Positions 8,902 through 19,909 of a DNA stretch of 64,000 bases are shown in pieces. The DNA comes from Palleronia sp. LCG004. GTDB taxonomy: Bacteria; Pseudomonadota; Alphaproteobacteria; Rhodobacterales; Rhodobacteraceae. The notes beneath the pieces were generated by a model. It worked only from the letters and a program-made list of their open reading frames with translations, did no database searches and was not told the DNA's origin. Position numbers and translations under genes: made by a program. Positions within the stretch are counted from its first letter, which is position 1; every line of letters begins with the position of its first letter. Location of the stretch: positions 1,984,001 through 2,048,000 of the forward strand of contig NZ_CP136759.1 in the NCBI RefSeq assembly GCF_032931615.1. The letters are read 5' to 3'.

Positions 8902-9882
8902 CTAGAGGCCTCCTTCCAGATCCAGTTTCGGCAATCCAAGGCGCGCCCGGTCGACGGGACCGGCTGACGCGTCGGTCCGCCGCGCGATCCGCAGACGCGC
9001 CGATCTGGCCCGCGGATTGCGGGCGATCTCGTCCTCGTCTGCCGAAATGCCCTTGTTGAGGGCGGCGAATCGCGGCGCGTCCTCGGTCTGCGCCGGGGCA
9101 TAGCGGTTCGCGTTGCCGCCGCCGCCCGATCGCGCCTGGAGGAACCGCTTGACGACACGGTCCTCGAGCGAGTGGAAACTCACGACCGCCAGCAGGCCGC
9201 CGGGGCGCAGCGCGCGTTCCGCGGCTTCGAGCCCCGCGACCAGCTGCCCGAACTCGTCGTTGACGGCGATCCTTATGGCCTGGAACGTGCGGGTCGCCGG
9301 GTGGCTCTGACCGGGTTTCGGACGCGGCAGCGCCCGCTCGACGATCCCGGCGAGCTGCGCCGTCGTGGTGATCGCCGCCTCGCTACGGGCCCGGACGATC
9401 GCGCGGGCGATCCGGCGCGACGCGCGATCCTCGCCATACTGATAGATAACGTCGGCGAGCCGCCCCTCGTCCAGTTCGGCCACGAGATCGGCCGCGGAAG
9501 GCCCTCCCTCGCCCATGCGCATGTCGAGTGGGCCGTCACGCAGGAAGGAAAAGCCGCGCTGCGGCTGGTCGAGCTGCATCGACGACACCCCGAGATCGAG
9601 AACGACGCCATCGACCGGTTCCCCGGCAAGGCTGTCGAGATCCGAGAATGTCCCCTGCACGAGGTGCAGCGCGGCCCCGTAGGTATCGACCCATTTTTCT
9701 GCAAGTGCGAAGACGGTCGGATCCCGGTCAATGCCGATGACATGTTCGGCACCAGCCGCGAGCAGTCCGCGCGCGTACCCGCCCGCGCCGAACGTACCGT
9801 CGACCCAGGTCCCCGCAATCGGCGCGGCCTCGCGCAGGATCGGGTTCAGAAGAACCGGGATATGTGGATCGCGATCGCTCAT
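8902..9882 (-). CDS. rsmH: 16S rRNA (cytosine1402-N4)-methyltransferase RsmH
   Basis: SAM-dependent enzyme (formerly MraW) that methylates N4 of C1402 in the ribosomal decoding centre. The N-terminus [13 protein letters not shown] is typical, and the SAM-binding motif GTFGAGG is at 29-35. [18 protein letters not shown] and the C-terminal [16 protein letters not shown] are family signatures. The length of 326 residues is normal. The ATG overlaps the mraZ stop (ATGA), and the gene abuts ftsL. Confidence 0.97.
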
Positions 9883-10391
9883 CCGAACTCCCGGTCGAGC
9901 GGCTTGCCCTTCAGATAGGTTGCCGGATCGACACTCTCGTCAAAGTTGTCGTCGGGCGGCAGACCCTTCATATCATTGCGCGAATAGGTTTCGGGCTCCC
10001 AAATCATGAAGGTGCCACTGTTGCCGAGCACCAGCGCCTTGTCCGTAAGGCCGATCTTGGTGCGCAGGTACGAGTTGAGGACGACCCGACCCGTCTCGTC
10101 GAGTTGTGCCGGCTGGACCTGGTGCGCGAAGAGTCGCTGGAGTGCGACCTGCTCGCGGGAGTTCTGGTCCTTCGCCTGAATCTGACGATGCACATCGCGG
10201 AAATCGTTGACCGAAAAGATCTCGAGGTAATCGCGGCGTTCGTCGCCGAAGACGATGAAGAGGTGGGCATTGGTGCCCGGCTCCCATTTCGGGTCGTTCT
10301 CTTCCAGAATCCTGCGGAAATCAGCGGGTATCGACAGCCGCCCCTTGCTGTCGATCTTGTTCTCGTATCGGCCGATATACATGCCGAACAC
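9879..10391 (-). CDS. mraZ: Transcriptional regulator MraZ
   Basis: First gene of the dcw cluster; MraZ is a ring-forming DNA-binding protein that represses its own operon in enterobacteria. There are two SpoVT/AbrB-like halves: the first holds [13 protein letters not shown] (about residues 14-26), the second [17 protein letters not shown]. The length of 170 residues is slightly long for MraZ because of an extended C-terminus. The chosen start is a GTG at 10391 because AGGAG sits 9 bases upstream at 10401-10405; an ATG at 10382 would be 18 bases away. I could not identify the TGGG direct repeats to which MraZ classically binds. Confidence 0.93.
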
Positions 10392-11038
10392 GCGCGCGAT
10401 CTCCTGGTCCTGCCTCTGGCGCGATTCGCGCCGCCATGGTAGAAACGGAAACGGCGACCGGAACTGCTGCCACGGTTCCGATCGCCGCCCTCGTCCCGTT
10501 CCCGGGGTGTCCGATCACACGCGCCATCTGGGGGGATGCTTACCGCCCGCGTGCCGGATCTCTCTCACCGAAGAAGTCTGCCTGTATGAAACCTAAGCCT
10601 CTGTTATCGTTGGAACCTTGCGGATCTTTGCGTCCGTCTTGGCCCTGCTCTTCGATGAATTAGGGATCGCATGGGAAAGTTTGCCACGCAAGGAAAAATT
10701 GCCTGAGCGGGCCGCTCGGCGGCTCTGAGCTATGGCCCAAATCCCACATTACGGCGAAATCACGGCACCGCGATTGCTGTATCGAGTGCCAAGGATGATT
10801 TCCGACACAAGATGTAGGTCCTAAAAATTTCTGCTTTCGGCAGCACAACCAGGGCGCGAAATCGGCCGAGCGGCTGTGCCGACCGCGTCGGACGGGGAAT
10901 CGAACGAGAATCGCCCCTCCCTCCCATGCCGGCCCAAATCCGCTCCCAGGGTGAAGACCCGGCCCATTCCATCCCAATTCGGCGCCCAGGCACGACGAGG
11001 ATTCGCGAACCGTTAACGCACGTCTCGAAACGCATGCA
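10392..11038. other. Long intergenic region between mraZ and the DUF1127 gene
   Basis: About 650 bases without a convincing gene, lower in GC than the neighbours. It must hold the dcw promoter on the minus strand. A weak hairpin with a T-run is visible on the minus strand near 10825-10844 (stem CTGC/GCAG, then AAATTTTT), which could end a short transcript. A C-rich tract CCCCTCCCTCCC lies near 10914-10925. RNase P RNA signatures were looked for and not found. The minus-strand frame 10660-11271 has no homology character. Confidence 0.6.
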
Positions 11039-11065
11039 CTTGCTGCATGGCAGCATTGCCTATTC
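11039..11065 (+). promoter_or_regulatory. Predicted RpoH-type promoter of the DUF1127/sRNA operon
   Basis: CTTG at 11039-11042 is followed after 16 bases by CCTATTC at 11059-11065. This fits the alphaproteobacterial heat-shock sigma consensus CTTG-N16-CYTATNT with one mismatch. It would start transcription near 11072, about 70 bases before the DUF1127 ATG. The R. sphaeroides counterpart operon is known to be driven by RpoHI/RpoHII. The spacer holds an inverted repeat, TGCTGC-ATG-GCAGCA (11041-11055). Prediction only. Confidence 0.5.
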
Positions 11066-11141
11066 GTGGGATTGTGCATCTGCAGCATGATCGTATGTTC
11101 ACTGCAACAGAGACGGAAACACGCGAAAGCGAGACGTTCAA

Positions 11142-11357
11142 ATGACCATGTACACACAGACCGACATCCGCACCGGACGCGACAACCTTTTCGGAAACGC
11201 GTTCTCGAACCTTCAGGCCCAGTATGGCCGCTGGCGCATGTATGTCCGGACCCGCAACGAGCTGATGTCACTTTCCAACCGCGAGCTCGCCGACCTCGGC
11301 ATGACGCGTAGCGGCATCAAGTCCATCGCTCTCGAAGCGGCTTACGGCAACGCCTGA
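11142..11357 (+). CDS. ccaF1: DUF1127 small protein, CcaF1-like RNA-binding factor
   Basis: A 71-residue protein whose C-terminal half is a DUF1127 domain: YGRWRMYVRTRNELMSLS followed by NRELADLGMTRSGI (about residues 28-60), rich in arginine. In R. sphaeroides a DUF1127 protein of this kind, CcaF1 (RSP_6037), is cotranscribed with the CcsR small RNAs, binds RNA and influences sRNA maturation. The array of CcsR-type RNAs begins about 110 bases downstream on the same strand, so I infer the same role. A second in-frame ATG two codons later is possible. No strong Shine-Dalgarno is visible (AGCGAG, 11 bases upstream). Assignment by synteny plus domain. Confidence 0.75.
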   Translation: MTMYTQTDIRTGRDNLFGNAFSNLQAQYGRWRMYVRTRNELMSLSNRELADLGMTRSGIKSIALEAAYGNA

Positions 11358-11467
11358 ATTATTTTCGCCTTGTTCCCCATCGGGTCGATCGAGGCGGACG
11401 GAACACCATCGATGAGCTGAAATCGGCCAGCAGGAAGACCGATCGAAGACAGCTCCTCGAAAAGTAC

Positions 11468-11543
11468 AACGATAGATCCTACCTCCTCCCGGGATCGATC
11501 GTTTCAGGCGACGGGGCCGACCTCCTCCCCGGTCCCGTCGCCT
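11468..11543 (+). ncRNA. ccsR: CcsR-type sRNA unit 1
   Basis: First unit, diverged from the core. Hairpin 1 (11468-11503) has an 11-base-pair stem, AACGAT and GATCC pairing with GGATC and ATCGTT around one A/G mismatch, and the loop holds CCTCCTCCC. Hairpin 2 (11506-11543) is AGGCGACGGG paired with CCCGTCGCCT, again with CCTCCTCCC at its tip. CcsR RNAs are Hfq-associated stress-induced RNAs in R. sphaeroides; the exposed motif resembles an anti-Shine-Dalgarno. Confidence 0.85.
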
Positions 11544-11582
11544 CTAAGATACCGGGCCGAACGGCCCAGCGAGACGCGGTAG

Positions 11583-11648
11583 CCCTACCTCCTCCCAGGG
11601 CGAGCCGTTCAGGCGACGGGGCCGACCTCCTCCCCGGCTCCGTCGCCT
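11583..11648 (+). ncRNA. ccsR: CcsR-type sRNA unit 2
   Basis: Core unit. Hairpin 1 is CCCT-ACCTCCTCCC-AGGG at 11583-11600. Hairpin 2 is AGGCGACGG paired with CCGTCGCCT at 11611-11648, with an inner CCG/CGG helix closing the second CCTCCTCCC loop. The 5' flank GAGACGCGGTAG repeats before nearly every later unit and may hold the processing site. Confidence 0.85.
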
Positions 11649-11686
11649 CCAGATACCGGGCCGAACGGCCCAGCGAGACGCGGTAG

Positions 11687-11752
11687 CCCTACCTCCTCCC
11701 AGGGCGAGCCGTTCAGGCGACGGGGCCGACCTCCTCCCCGGCTCCGTCGCCT
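11687..11752 (+). ncRNA. ccsR: CcsR-type sRNA unit 3
   Basis: Same two hairpins as unit 2, motifs at 11692 and 11730. It is practically identical to unit 2, which suggests recent duplication or gene conversion. Confidence 0.85.
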
Positions 11753-11790
11753 CCAGATACCGGGCCGAACGGCCTAGCGAGACGCGGTAG

Positions 11791-11856
11791 CCCTACCTCC
11801 TCCCAGGGTGAGCCGTTCAGGCGACGGGGCCGACCTCCTCCCCGGCACCGTCGCCT
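11791..11856 (+). ncRNA. ccsR: CcsR-type sRNA unit 4
   Basis: Motifs at 11796 and 11834. It differs from units 2 and 3 by GGGTGAG instead of GGGCGAG after hairpin 1 and by GGCACC instead of GGCTCC in the internal loop of hairpin 2; neither change breaks a pair. The preceding linker hairpin ends in GGCCT, keeping a G-U pair. Confidence 0.85.
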
Positions 11857-11894
11857 CCAGATACCGGGCCGAACGGCCCAGCGAGACACGGTAG

Positions 11895-11960
11895 CCCTAC
11901 CTCCTCCCAGGGTGAGCCGTTCAGGCGACGGGGCCGACCTCCTCCCCGGCACCGTCGCCT
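11895..11960 (+). ncRNA. ccsR: CcsR-type sRNA unit 5
   Basis: Motifs at 11900 and 11938. Sequence matches unit 4 (GGGTGAG and GGCACC variants); the 5' flank has GAGACACGG in place of GAGACGCGG. Confidence 0.85.
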
Positions 11961-11998
11961 CCAGATACCGGGCCAAACGGCCCAGCGAGACGCGGTAG

Positions 11999-12064
11999 CC
12001 CTACCTCCTCCCAGGGTGAGCCGTTCAGGCGACGGGGCCGACCTCCTCCCCGGCTCCGTCGCCG
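11999..12064 (+). ncRNA. ccsR: CcsR-type sRNA unit 6
   Basis: Motifs at 12004 and 12042. It combines the GGGTGAG variant of units 4-5 with the GGCTCC variant of units 2-3, a mosaic expected from recombination between units. After hairpin 2 the sequence changes to GCAGAAATACGG, leading into the diverged last linker. Confidence 0.85.
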
Positions 12065-12102
12065 CAGAAATACGGACCCAACGGTCCGGCCGAGGCGCTA
12101 GG

Positions 12103-12172
12103 CCCTACCTCCTCCCAGGGTCGATGCGAAAGAACGGCGACGTCCACCTCCTCCCGGGCGTCGCCGTTTCGC
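12103..12172 (+). ncRNA. ccsR: CcsR-type sRNA unit 7
   Basis: Last unit, strongly diverged outside the motifs. Hairpin 1 keeps CCCT-ACCTCCTCCC-AGGG. Hairpin 2 is rebuilt: AACGGCGACG-TCC pairs with GGG-CGTCGCCGTT (12133-12168), and the outer GCGA/TCGC helix extends it to 12126-12172. Both loops still present CCTCCTCCC. Structure kept while sequence changed argues for function. Confidence 0.83.
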
Positions 12173-12223
12173 GTTTCAGAGGGTGTCAGGACAGTCTCGG
12201 CAATCCTGCGATCGCCAAGCGGC

Positions 12224-14617
12224 TCAGAACGGCACGTTGCCGGCTTCGTCCGCATCGATGAGGAACTTCGCGACGACCTTCTTCCGTCCGGCCTTGTCGA
12301 AGCTGATATCGAGCTTGTCGCCTTCGATCGCGCTGACCGTGCCGTATCCGAACTTGCTGTGGAACACGCGATCCCCGTCCTCGAACGACGAGATCGCCGT
12401 GGCGTCGATCATCATGTCGCGGCTTTCCTGCGGCTGCCGCATCGGGCGGTTCGCGCTGCGCTCCTGCAATCTGCGCCAGCCGGGGGAATTGTAGACATCA
12501 GCCCGCCCCGCGCGATCGTGCAGATCGCTGGCCTGCGCGGCCATGATCGCCGGCGACGCGCTCGACGCCATGCCCGCCGCACCGTAGCCCCCGCCATAGA
12601 GCCCCGGTGGCGTCAGGACCTCGACGTGATCCTCGGGCAGTTCGTCGATGAAGCGCGAGGGCAACGCGGATTGCCATTGGCCATAGACGCGCCGGTTCGC
12701 CGCGAAACTGATCGTGCAGATCCTCTCGGCCCGGGTGATGCCGACATAGGCGAGGCGACGTTCCTCCTCCAGACCCTTGAGGCCCGATTCGTCCATCGAC
12801 CGCTGCGAGGGGAAGAGGCCGTCCTCCCAGCCCGGCAGGAACACGACCGGAAACTCGAGCCCCTTCGCGGCATGAAGGGTCATCACGCTGATCTTCGCGC
12901 CGCCCTCCTCCGTCTCGTTGTCCATGATGAGGGCGACATGCTCGAGGAATCCCTGAAGGTTCTCGAATTGCTCCAGCGCCTTGATCAACTCCTTGAGGTT
13001 CTCGAGCCGCCCGGGGGCCTCGGGCGTCTTGTCGTTCTGCCAATGCGCGGTATAGCCCGATTCCTCGAGAATGGTCTCGGCAAGCTCGATATGGCTCTGA
13101 TCCGGCCGGCGGGTCAGATCGTGCCAACGCGCGAGATTGTCGACCAGCAGGCGAAGTTCGGCCCCGCCCTTGCCGCCGAGTTCGCCTTCGGACAGCAGGA
13201 TCCGCGCGCCGTCGATCAGCGTGGCACCGTTTTCCCGCGCGGTGCGCTGGATCTTCTGCTGTGCCTTGTCGCCGAGCCCGCGCTTGGGCGTGTTGACGAT
13301 TCGCTCGAACGCGAGATCGTCGTCCGGGCTGACGGCGCAGCGGAAATAGGCCATCGCATCGCGAATCTCGAGCCGTTCGTAGAATCGCGGCCCCCCGATT
13401 ACGCGGTATGGCAGGCCGATCGTCAGGAACCGGTCCTCGAAGGCACGCATCTGATGCGAGGCGCGGACGAGAATCGCCATGTCGTCGAGCGAGATCGGAT
13501 CGATCCCGCGCGTTCCACGAGACAGCGATTCGACCTCCTCACCGATCCAGCGGGCCTCCTCCTCACCGTCCCAATGGCCGATGAGACGCACGCGCTCGCC
13601 TTCGGTCAGGTCGGTGAAGAGCGTCTTGCCCAGCCGCCCCTCGTTCGCGTCGATCACGCCCGCGGCCGCGGCCAGGATGTGCGGCGTCGAGCGGTAGTTC
13701 TGCTCGAGCCGGACGACCTTCGCGCCCGGAAAATCTTTCTCGAACCGGAGGATGTTGCCGACCTCCGCCCCGCGCCAACCATAGATCGACTGGTCGTCGT
13801 CGCCCACGCAGCAGATGTTCTTGTGCCCCTGGGCCAGCAGCCTCAGCCAGAGATACTGCGCGACGTTCGTGTCCTGATACTCGTCGACGAGGATATAGCG
13901 GAACCAGCGCTGGTACTGCGCGAGCACGTCGGGATGGTTCTGGAAGATCGTCACGACATGGAGAAGGAGATCGCCGAAATCGACGGCGTTCAGCGTCTTC
14001 AGCCGCTGCTGGTAATAGTCGTAGAGCTCGGTGCCGCGATGGTTGTAGGCCCCTGCCTCGGCCGCGGGAACCTTGTCGGGCGTCCAGGCGCGGTTCTTCC
14101 AGTGATCGATATGGCCGGCGAGCTGGCGCGCGGGCCAGCGCTTCTCGTCTATGTTCTCGGCCGCGATCAGCTGCTTCAGCAGCCGGATCTGGTCGTCCGT
14201 GTCGAGAATCGTGAAATTCGACTTCAGATCCACCAGTTCGGCATGACGGCGCAGCAGCTTGACGCAGATCGCGTGGAACGTGCCGAGCCAAGGCATCCCC
14301 TCGATCGTCTGCCCGAGCAGACCGCCCACGCGCTCCTTCATCTCGCGCGCGGCCTTGTTGGTGAAGGTCACGGCGAGGATCTCGTTCGGACGGGCACGAC
14401 CTTGCGTCATCAGATGCGCGATGCGGGCGGTGAGCGCCCGGGTCTTGCCGGTTCCGGCCCCCGCCAGCATCAGGACCGGGCCGTCGAGCGCCTCGACCGC
14501 CTCGCGCTGCGCGGCGTTGAGCCCGTCGAGATAGGGCGTCGCGGCCGGGGCCATGGCGCGTTGCGACAGCGGCACCGCCGCGCGTTCGAATGCGTCGTTC
14601 TCGTCGAAGCTGCTCAT
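12224..14617 (-). CDS. uvrD: ATP-dependent DNA helicase UvrD/PcrA
   Basis: Superfamily 1A 3'-5' helicase for nucleotide-excision and mismatch repair. Q-motif LNAAQREAV is at about 33-41, Walker A GAGTGKT at 53-59, and Walker B/motif II is DEYQDTN. Motif III reads GDDDQSIYGWRGAE, and motif VI has YVGITRAE. A C-terminal Tudor-like RNA-polymerase-interacting segment (DRVFHSKFGYGTV onward) is intact. The length of 797 residues is normal. It is monocistronic and convergent with the sRNA array, whose last hairpin ends about 50 bases from the uvrD stop. Confidence 0.95.
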   Translation of the reverse strand: MSSFDENDAFERAAVPLSQRAMAPAATPYLDGLNAAQREAVEALDGPVLMLAGAGTGKTRALTARIAHLMTQGRARPNEILAVTFTNKAAREMKERVGGLLGQTIEGMPWLGTFHAICVKLLRRHAELVDLKSNFTILDTDDQIRLLKQLIAAENIDEKRWPARQLAGHIDHWKNRAWTPDKVPAAEAGAYNHRGTELYDYYQQRLKTLNAVDFGDLLLHVVTIFQNHPDVLAQYQRWFRYILVDEYQDTNVAQYLWLRLLAQGHKNICCVGDDDQSIYGWRGAEVGNILRFEKDFPGAKVVRLEQNYRSTPHILAAAAGVIDANEGRLGKTLFTDLTEGERVRLIGHWDGEEEARWIGEEVESLSRGTRGIDPISLDDMAILVRASHQMRAFEDRFLTIGLPYRVIGGPRFYERLEIRDAMAYFRCAVSPDDDLAFERIVNTPKRGLGDKAQQKIQRTARENGATLIDGARILLSEGELGGKGGAELRLLVDNLARWHDLTRRPDQSHIELAETILEESGYTAHWQNDKTPEAPGRLENLKELIKALEQFENLQGFLEHVALIMDNETEEGGAKISVMTLHAAKGLEFPVVFLPGWEDGLFPSQRSMDESGLKGLEEERRLAYVGITRAERICTISFAANRRVYGQWQSALPSRFIDELPEDHVEVLTPPGLYGGGYGAAGMASSASPAIMAAQASDLHDRAGRADVYNSPGWRRLQERSANRPMRQPQESRDMMIDATAISSFEDGDRVFHSKFGYGTVSAIEGDKLDISFDKAGRKKVVAKFLIDADEAGNVPF

Positions 14618-19737: not shown

Positions 19738-19812
19738 GCGGGCGTAGCTCAGGGGTAGAGCATAACCTTGCCAAGGTTAGGGTCGTGAGTTCGAATCTCA
19801 TCGCCCGCTCCA
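19738..19812 (+). tRNA. tRNA-Gly (GCC), copy 1
   Basis: The cloverleaf is complete. The acceptor stem is GCGGGCG/CGCCCGC, the D arm GCTC/GAGC, the anticodon arm TAACC-TTGCCAA-GGTTA with anticodon GCC, and the T arm GTGAG-TTCGAAT-CTCAT; CCA is encoded. Confidence 0.97.
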
Positions 19813-19834: not shown

Positions 19835-19909
19835 GCGGGCGTAGCTCAGGGGTAGAGCATAACCTTGCCAAGGTTAGGGTCGTGAGTTCGAATCTCATCG
19901 CCCGCTCCA
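19835..19909 (+). tRNA. tRNA-Gly (GCC), copy 2
   Basis: Identical over the full 75 bases to the copy at 19738-19812, separated by 22 bases of unrelated sequence. Anticodon GCC; encoded CCA. It ends 7 bases from the stop of the convergent lolD. Confidence 0.97.

Follow-up and report, generated by a model that had tools for sequence, protein, structure and literature searches.

The window, that is the whole 64-kb stretch of DNA analysed here, carries on its plus strand a short gene encoding a DUF1127 protein, a conserved block upstream of it and a tandem array of hairpins downstream of it. The features of this locus, with the evidence for each, are as follows:

11041..11058, plus strand: conserved upstream dyad TGCTGCATGGCAGCATTG (comparison of upstream regions)
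11072..11099, plus strand: second conserved element, TTGTGCATCTGCAGCA at 11072-11087, 31 bp from the first (comparison of upstream regions)
11142..11357, plus strand: DUF1127 protein of 71 aa, CcaF1-like (PF06568 match, E 3.9e-12)
11468..11545, plus strand: unit 1, two hairpins (repeat spacing, folding)
11554..11567, plus strand: linker mini-hairpin GGGCCGAACGGCCC (sequence)
11577..11650, plus strand: unit 2 (repeat spacing, unit comparison, folding)
11681..11754, plus strand: unit 3 (repeat spacing, unit comparison, folding)
11785..11858, plus strand: unit 4 (repeat spacing, unit comparison, folding)
11889..11962, plus strand: unit 5 (repeat spacing, unit comparison, folding)
11993..12066, plus strand: unit 6 (repeat spacing, unit comparison, folding)
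12098..12180, plus strand: unit 7, whose second hairpin (12132-12169) and T-rich tail form a probable intrinsic terminator (folding, tail statistics)

The neighbouring open reading frames on the minus strand are presumably those of MraZ (9879-10391), RsmH (8902-9882) and a UvrD-type helicase (12224-14617). Analysis of the plus strand between 11482 and 12155 revealed 14 exact copies of the motif CCTCCTCCC. The whole window held 16, against a chance level of 1.22 per window (sd 1.12, largest 5), and none of 100 shuffles reached that number. The spacing of the motifs alternated between 38/39 and 66/67, giving a 104-bp unit with two motifs that is repeated seven times in tandem, with an inter-unit gap of 57 nt. 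When each unit was folded alone, all 14 motifs lay within an identical 10-nt hairpin loop, ACCUCCUCCC; when 11441-12200 was folded whole, the loops of the array stayed unpaired and the z-score was −7.9 relative to 20 shuffles. The count of 14 exact motifs, each in a hairpin loop, their arrangement as two per unit in seven tandem units and the position of the array behind a DUF1127 gene were thus all as described in the original prediction. Additionally, each linker that follows one of units 1-5 contained the mini-hairpin GGGCCGAACGGCCC, which differed by a single base behind units 3 and 5, and the linker after unit 6 carried a paired change (GGACC/GGTCC) in it; this third, linker hairpin is a possible processing signal.

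No Rfam family reached its gathering score over the array, the only matches in the window being three tRNAs. Two tRNA genes, at 19738-19809 and 19835-19906, lie 25 bp apart and have equal Rfam scores. The array is internal to a 2.95-Mb contig of a 3.87-Mb genome in five contigs, and an array of five units, laid out in the same way, is present in the sister genome G011; an assembly artefact is therefore an unlikely source of the copy number.

Judged by its sequence, the locus is the ccaF1-CcsR (cuckoo/CIN1) locus of a Palleronia-group genome. In the CcsR1-4/CcaF1 locus of R. sphaeroides, a DUF1127 gene is likewise followed by two-hairpin anti-SD units on the same strand and by an intrinsic terminator (PMC10253847, PMC3927594); here, too, a short DUF1127 gene immediately precedes the array on its strand, and the last hairpin with its T-rich tail stands at the 3′ end. 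The difference is that there are seven units rather than four, and that units 2-5 are almost identical. The locus also has the adjacent hairpins, the 9-nt loop and the variable stems of the cuckoo family (SmelA075/SmelA099, alpha-r14/NfeR1): every loop holds CCUCCUCCC (14 of 14 motifs in 10-nt loops), and the stems vary with conserved pairing, as judged from 770 hairpins of family arrays. Cuckoo members are reported to have 2–4 hairpins (PMC4504443), and NfeR1, which has been studied together with LsrB, is a three-hairpin relative (PMC10746234), whereas here there are two hairpins per unit but fourteen per presumed transcript behind the DUF1127 gene, the number per RNA depending on processing. 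Anatomy, synteny and homology agreed with the earlier assignment to the CcsR/cuckoo group behind a CcaF1-type gene. The array, found in a marine bacterium, genuinely belongs to a known RNA family, within which it is unusually uniform.

The same surroundings were found in relatives. MraZ was present in 71 of 94 array loci and UvrD likewise in 71/94, in a set that includes loci truncated at contig ends and counts four genomes twice. A DUF1127 frame accompanied the array in 26/30 family loci and, when a profile was used, in 14 of the 15 large-array loci; conversely, 68 of 80 DUF1127 loci had two or more same-strand motifs, the 80 being the best 80 of 301 passing, chosen only by similarity to the DUF1127 protein of the window. 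Two genomes of the genus, G009 (L091) and G010 (L092), have the array, the promoter box, MraZ and UvrD and no detectable DUF1127 gene in the fetched region, which suggests that the array does not absolutely require the protein in cis. In G002, the motif also occurs in two isolated two-hairpin copies (L097 on C17 and L098 on C29) away from the main array, with no detectable DUF1127 gene or promoter box.

Stem pairing was conserved across the family: at least seven of nine positions formed Watson-Crick pairs in the best register in 652 of 770 non-redundant hairpins (85%), compared to 16% when the right arms were permuted. Covariation was higher than in 200 shuffles at each of the nine pairs in three registers, which were chosen to maximise pairing and hence lean toward a signal, in sequences that are related. 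At positions flanked by Watson-Crick pairs in the 652 hairpins, G-U occurred 275 times vs. 24 for A-C. Since an A-C mismatch is a G-U pair seen on the other strand, this excess indicates constraint on the RNA of the motif strand, and selection acts at the RNA level on that strand. Tandem inverted repeats could also be expected of an element acting as DNA, such as a cruciform, a protein-binding site or a mobile repeat; given the strand asymmetry of the mismatches, the conserved place near mraZ and UvrD, the motifs on the DUF1127 strand and the terminal T-tract, we regard this as very nearly out of the question.

The end of the array differed from its interior. Last hairpins had longer stems (mean 15 pairs vs. 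11 elsewhere) and a T-richer tail, the 12 nt that follow them containing on average 4.1 T in 96 arrays vs. 1.9 after 685 internal hairpins, and at least five T in 38/96 vs. 18/685 cases. On account of this longer stem and T-richer tail, the last hairpin probably doubles as the terminator. A simple terminator scan of 10700-12400, which allows only loops of 3–8, returned none on the plus strand.

The size of the array had been suggested to be unusual. This did not hold, as arrays as large or larger occur in several Rhodobacteraceae. Within the genus sample (14 genomes), motif pairs numbered 0 to 13 per genome, and the fetched regions contained 14 exact motifs in the present genome, 14 in G020, 11 in G002, 10 each in G003, G006 and G011, and fewer in the rest; motifs at contig ends in G007 and G021 mean that draft counts can be lower bounds. 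In a family sample of approximately one genome per genus, taken as Rhodobacteraceae, the motif pair was present in 295 of 394 genomes, and 39 of the 394 (38/393 besides the present one) had at least seven pairs on one strand. Most pairs were found in G185 (25), G320 (17), and G027 and G071 (15 each); the reversed control pattern was nonzero in places (8 in G331), and since the inter-unit gap of the present array exceeds the limit of the pair pattern, such counts understate spaced arrays relative to dense ones. Counted as exact motifs, 14 of 96 arrays had at least 14 and six had more, the largest having 26, 20, 17, 16 and 16, 15 genomes of this set having been picked for their size. Among the 80 DUF1127 loci, three reached at least 14: Flavimaricola marinus (14), Xinfangfangia pollutisoli (14) and Mesobaculum littorinae (16). 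The longest array seen, L061 in G185, consists of three-hairpin units of approximately 140 nt and holds the 26 exact motifs. Seven units thus lie in the upper range for such arrays and not beyond it. When 385 genomes across the class were scanned for a pattern of three motifs in close succession, none had it; the present genome fails it as well because of its 57-nt gap, so that this result is uninformative on spaced arrays and is not evidence for a restriction to Rhodobacteraceae. Among the literature titles and opening parts of abstracts listed, in a search outside the primary CcsR, CcaF1 and cuckoo papers, none gave an account of longer arrays.

Comparison of the units indicated different histories for the middle and the end of the array. 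Units 2-5 were 95–99% alike, units 1 and 6 were 86–88% alike to those, and unit 7 was only 57–59% alike to the other units. Compared to the internal units of G011, which are mutually 90–95% alike, units 2-5 reached 79–82%; the terminal units of the two genomes were 91% alike, and 53–59% alike to all other units. By these identities the middle units are recent duplicates, and the pattern looks like concerted evolution of the array middle with a fixed end. Such near-identity, higher than that to the sister's internal units, is the mark of recent duplication or homogenisation, and array size varies widely inside one genus; both would be expected if only one or two units mattered and the extra copies were a neutral by-product of unequal crossing-over, left to drift. 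Drift, however, would not keep the loop, and the loop was exact in 533 of 553 array stem-loops from 96 arrays, many of them with diverged stems (one mismatch in 18, two mismatches in 1, other in 1; stem-loops with 9–15-nt loops, array ends set by exact motifs, not de-duplicated). We therefore consider a neutral origin of the extra copies unlikely. Near-complete retention of the loop is consistent with selection for many copies; the near-identity of units 2-5 would also fit plain recent tandem duplication.

The upstream regions of these loci have a long block in common (63 regions compared). Its first dyad resembles the binding site of a LysR-type regulator: 14 of the 15 bases at 11044-11058, and 13/15 of the consensus, match the reverse complement of the VtlR box, published as CAATGCAGCCATGCA (PMC12595884). 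LsrB is the Sinorhizobium name of VtlR and is reported to activate NfeR1, a cuckoo RNA, through a site spanning −72 to −57 (PMC10746234); the dyad would be centred near −59, given a predicted transcription start near 11106. The sequence TTGTGC-N16-TATGTT within 11072..11099 can be read as a −35/−10 pair, placing the VtlR/LsrB-like box upstream of a putative core promoter, whereas an RpoHI/RpoHII promoter has been reported for the CcsR locus of R. sphaeroides. A sigma-70 consensus scan of 10700-12400 gave no promoter.

The block was conserved well beyond the window. Its core TGCTGCATAGCAGCATTG occurred within four substitutions in 68 of 80 promoter regions (the window and 79 named loci) and was absent in 12, including L143, L161 and L177, each with an array of at least four motifs. 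The second element, TTGTGCANNYGCAGCA, was present in 66 of 67 distinct blocks, at an offset of 30 or 31 in 64. Within the genus, all 14 genomes had the core within one mismatch at one to three sites, and in 13/14, with G007 included by inference from contig ends, an array or DUF1127 promoter was among these sites, the one of G010 having two mismatches. The VtlR motif itself was found within one, two and three mismatches in 4, 47 and 67 of the 80 regions vs. 0, 0 and 3 of 80 shuffled ones, and a shorter consensus, GCAT-N3-TG-N3-T (PMC7486931), matched in the window with one mismatch. Four other near-matches to the box were noted elsewhere in the genome (L210-L213). Among the literature matches listed, none linked LsrB or VtlR to the arrays of Rhodobacteraceae.

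The genome encodes an LsrB-like protein, P0001, whose gene (L236, G000:C1:1065554-1066453) lies outside the window, flanked by what we take to be PurL-like and indolepyruvate oxidoreductase-like genes. The best PDB match of P0001 was 9HH1 (263 bits; next PDB match 106 bits), which is the LsrB of A. tumefaciens (PMC11975290). LsrB is reported to occur in Rhizobiales only, its gene sharing an operon with trxB (PMC11975290). LTTR-like frames were found near trxB in 15 of 31 trxB loci (30 from 58 class genomes, and that of the present genome). When these trxB-linked frames were compared with the LTTRs of the present genome, 14/15 matched P0001 at 196–314 bits, the next match being at most 138, and the fifteenth did so weakly (77 vs. 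59), though several of the competing LTTRs were read in a wrong frame in this comparison; with the LTTR frames of the genome picked by profile (23 of 24 loci), P0001 reached 372 bits and the next 169. A P0001-type match (E up to 1e-60) was present in 116 of 120 family genomes, counted as one per genome and including one fragment. In the tree, the Rhodobacteraceae proteins nested among the trxB-linked ones, apart from the other LTTRs of the genome except for one fragment filled to 16%; the branch separating the LsrB-like group had a support of only 78/96. Taken together, the PDB match and the tree place an LsrB-family regulator in this genome. Linkage of its gene to trxB was considered and rejected, as no TrxB motif was present at the 24 LTTR loci and the trxB region of the genome (L281) gave no LTTR match.

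P0001 lacks the redox cysteines of LsrB: it contains no cysteine, and Leu and Ala stand at LsrB C144 and C273. One cysteine, at another position, was found in 18/20 family proteins and none in 11 of the 15 trxB-linked frames. Because so many trxB-linked frames are without cysteine, the redox cysteines may not define the LsrB family and may have been gained later in some Rhizobiales rather than lost here. The DNA-binding region of P0001, by comparison, is nearly identical to that of LsrB. LTTR boxes are short and the genome has 24 LTTR matches, so the upstream block could be bound by some regulator outside the LsrB family; this seems rather doubtful to us, considering the 14/15 agreement of the window box with the VtlR motif, the excess of regions within two mismatches over shuffled ones and the near-identity of the DNA-binding regions.

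The loop sequence itself points to possible targets. The pattern GGGAGGAG-N4-11-ATG, with 8 nt complementary to the loop, occurred 35 times in the genome compared to 8 times for the reversed pattern, an excess that mainly reflects normal Shine-Dalgarno (SD) sites. From 30 of the 35 sites, 23 distinct candidate ORFs of at least 60 aa were obtained, six shorter ORFs and L336 (a duplicate of L335) being dropped. Nine of the 23 encode uptake transporters: five DctP, one DctQ, one TctC, one Peripla_BP_6 and one ABC permease. The other 14 include seven metabolic enzymes (two acyl-CoA dehydrogenases, a thiolase, a TPP enzyme, a zinc dehydrogenase, a GFO/IDH/MocA oxidoreductase and a cyclase) and two proteins without a family. 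As a control, 20 evenly spaced 20-kb stretches had 2 of 266 called genes in those transporter families (Fisher p ~1e-9; for DctP alone 5/23 vs. 0/266, p 2e-6); the control genes came from a rough gene caller that undercounts, and were searched by phmmer with the candidates as queries, a less sensitive method than the Pfam scan applied to the candidates themselves. Unfiltered stop-to-stop frames of this 400-kb sample added nothing to these two genes, both permeases, and DctP, TctC and Peripla_BP_6 were not found among them. In a wider set of 398 genes of the genome, including the LTTR loci, transporters of these families made up 0/16 genes with a loop complement of at least 7 nt and 0/31 genes with a strong 16S-type SD, and one DctP gene had a 5-nt match; this set holds only three such transporters, too few to decide. 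The bias may simply mean that highly expressed binding proteins have strong SDs. Candidate targets of NfeR1 are likewise reported to be mostly ABC transport mRNAs (PMC10746234).

Fourteen identical single-stranded loops per presumed transcript, a loop that is nearly invariant while the stems vary, and the reported interaction of CcsR RNAs with Hfq (PMC8307010) would also suit a sponge, in which the pyrimidine-rich loops sequester an RNA-binding protein (Hfq, a cold-shock protein or the DUF1127 protein) instead of pairing with mRNA. The loop is, however, exactly complementary to strong SD sites whose genes are biased toward transporters, and in S. meliloti the same loop motif is reported to silence mRNAs, mutation abolishing the silencing (PMC10746234). 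Titration of a protein is thus improbable as the main role of the loops.

Overall, we give a probability of about 0.78 to the reading that this ccaF1-CcsR operon produces an LsrB/VtlR- or stress-driven transcript that is cut into anti-SD sRNAs blocking uptake genes. What was observed here in its favour is the anatomy of the locus, the RNA-level constraint, the terminator signature, the conserved promoter block, the presence of the regulator family and the bias of the candidate targets. Following the reports on CcsR1-4/CcaF1, which cover co-transcription with the RNA-binding protein, maturation by RNase E, Hfq dependence and pairing (PMC10253847, PMC8625941, PMC8307010, PMC7866481), a LysR-type LsrB/VtlR activator, acting alongside a sigma factor of the stress or housekeeping kind, would start a single transcript at ~11106, which would carry the DUF1127 RNA-binding protein and the seven two-hairpin units and end at the last hairpin as terminator. 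RNase E, aided by the DUF1127 protein, would then cut it into sRNAs of ~75–100 nt, each offering two ACCUCCUCCC loops that could pair with GGGAGGAG-type SD sites and block translation, with periplasmic binding proteins and other uptake genes as the main targets and catabolic mRNAs among them too. Transcription, processing, pairing and regulator binding are in this respect modelled on R. sphaeroides and Sinorhizobium. The length of the array would set the RNA yield per transcription event; that copy number serves as a dose setting is only hypothesised.

As in the LsrB/VtlR regulon of Rhizobiales (AbcR, NfeR1, VrsA and DUF1127 genes), a LysR-type box precedes anti-SD sRNAs and DUF1127 genes and the candidate targets are in uptake transport, whereas the orthologue in this genome is not beside trxB and is without the LsrB redox cysteines. 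A single circuit may extend across Rhizobiales and Rhodobacteraceae, in which an LsrB/VtlR LysR regulator would drive both DUF1127 genes and the anti-Shine-Dalgarno RNAs by which uptake transporters are silenced; the RNA part in Rhodobacteraceae would have become a tandem array able to expand (from 2 to at least 26 hairpins), its length being an evolvable dose, under a regulator without a cysteine redox switch. We offer this tentatively, at somewhat less than even odds. The findings predict LsrB-type control of CcsR arrays in Rhodobacteraceae, against the statement that LsrB is confined to Rhizobiales (PMC11975290). The candidate targets point toward control of nutrient uptake, and the survey of relatives provides a natural copy-number series for asking whether sRNA dose is selected.
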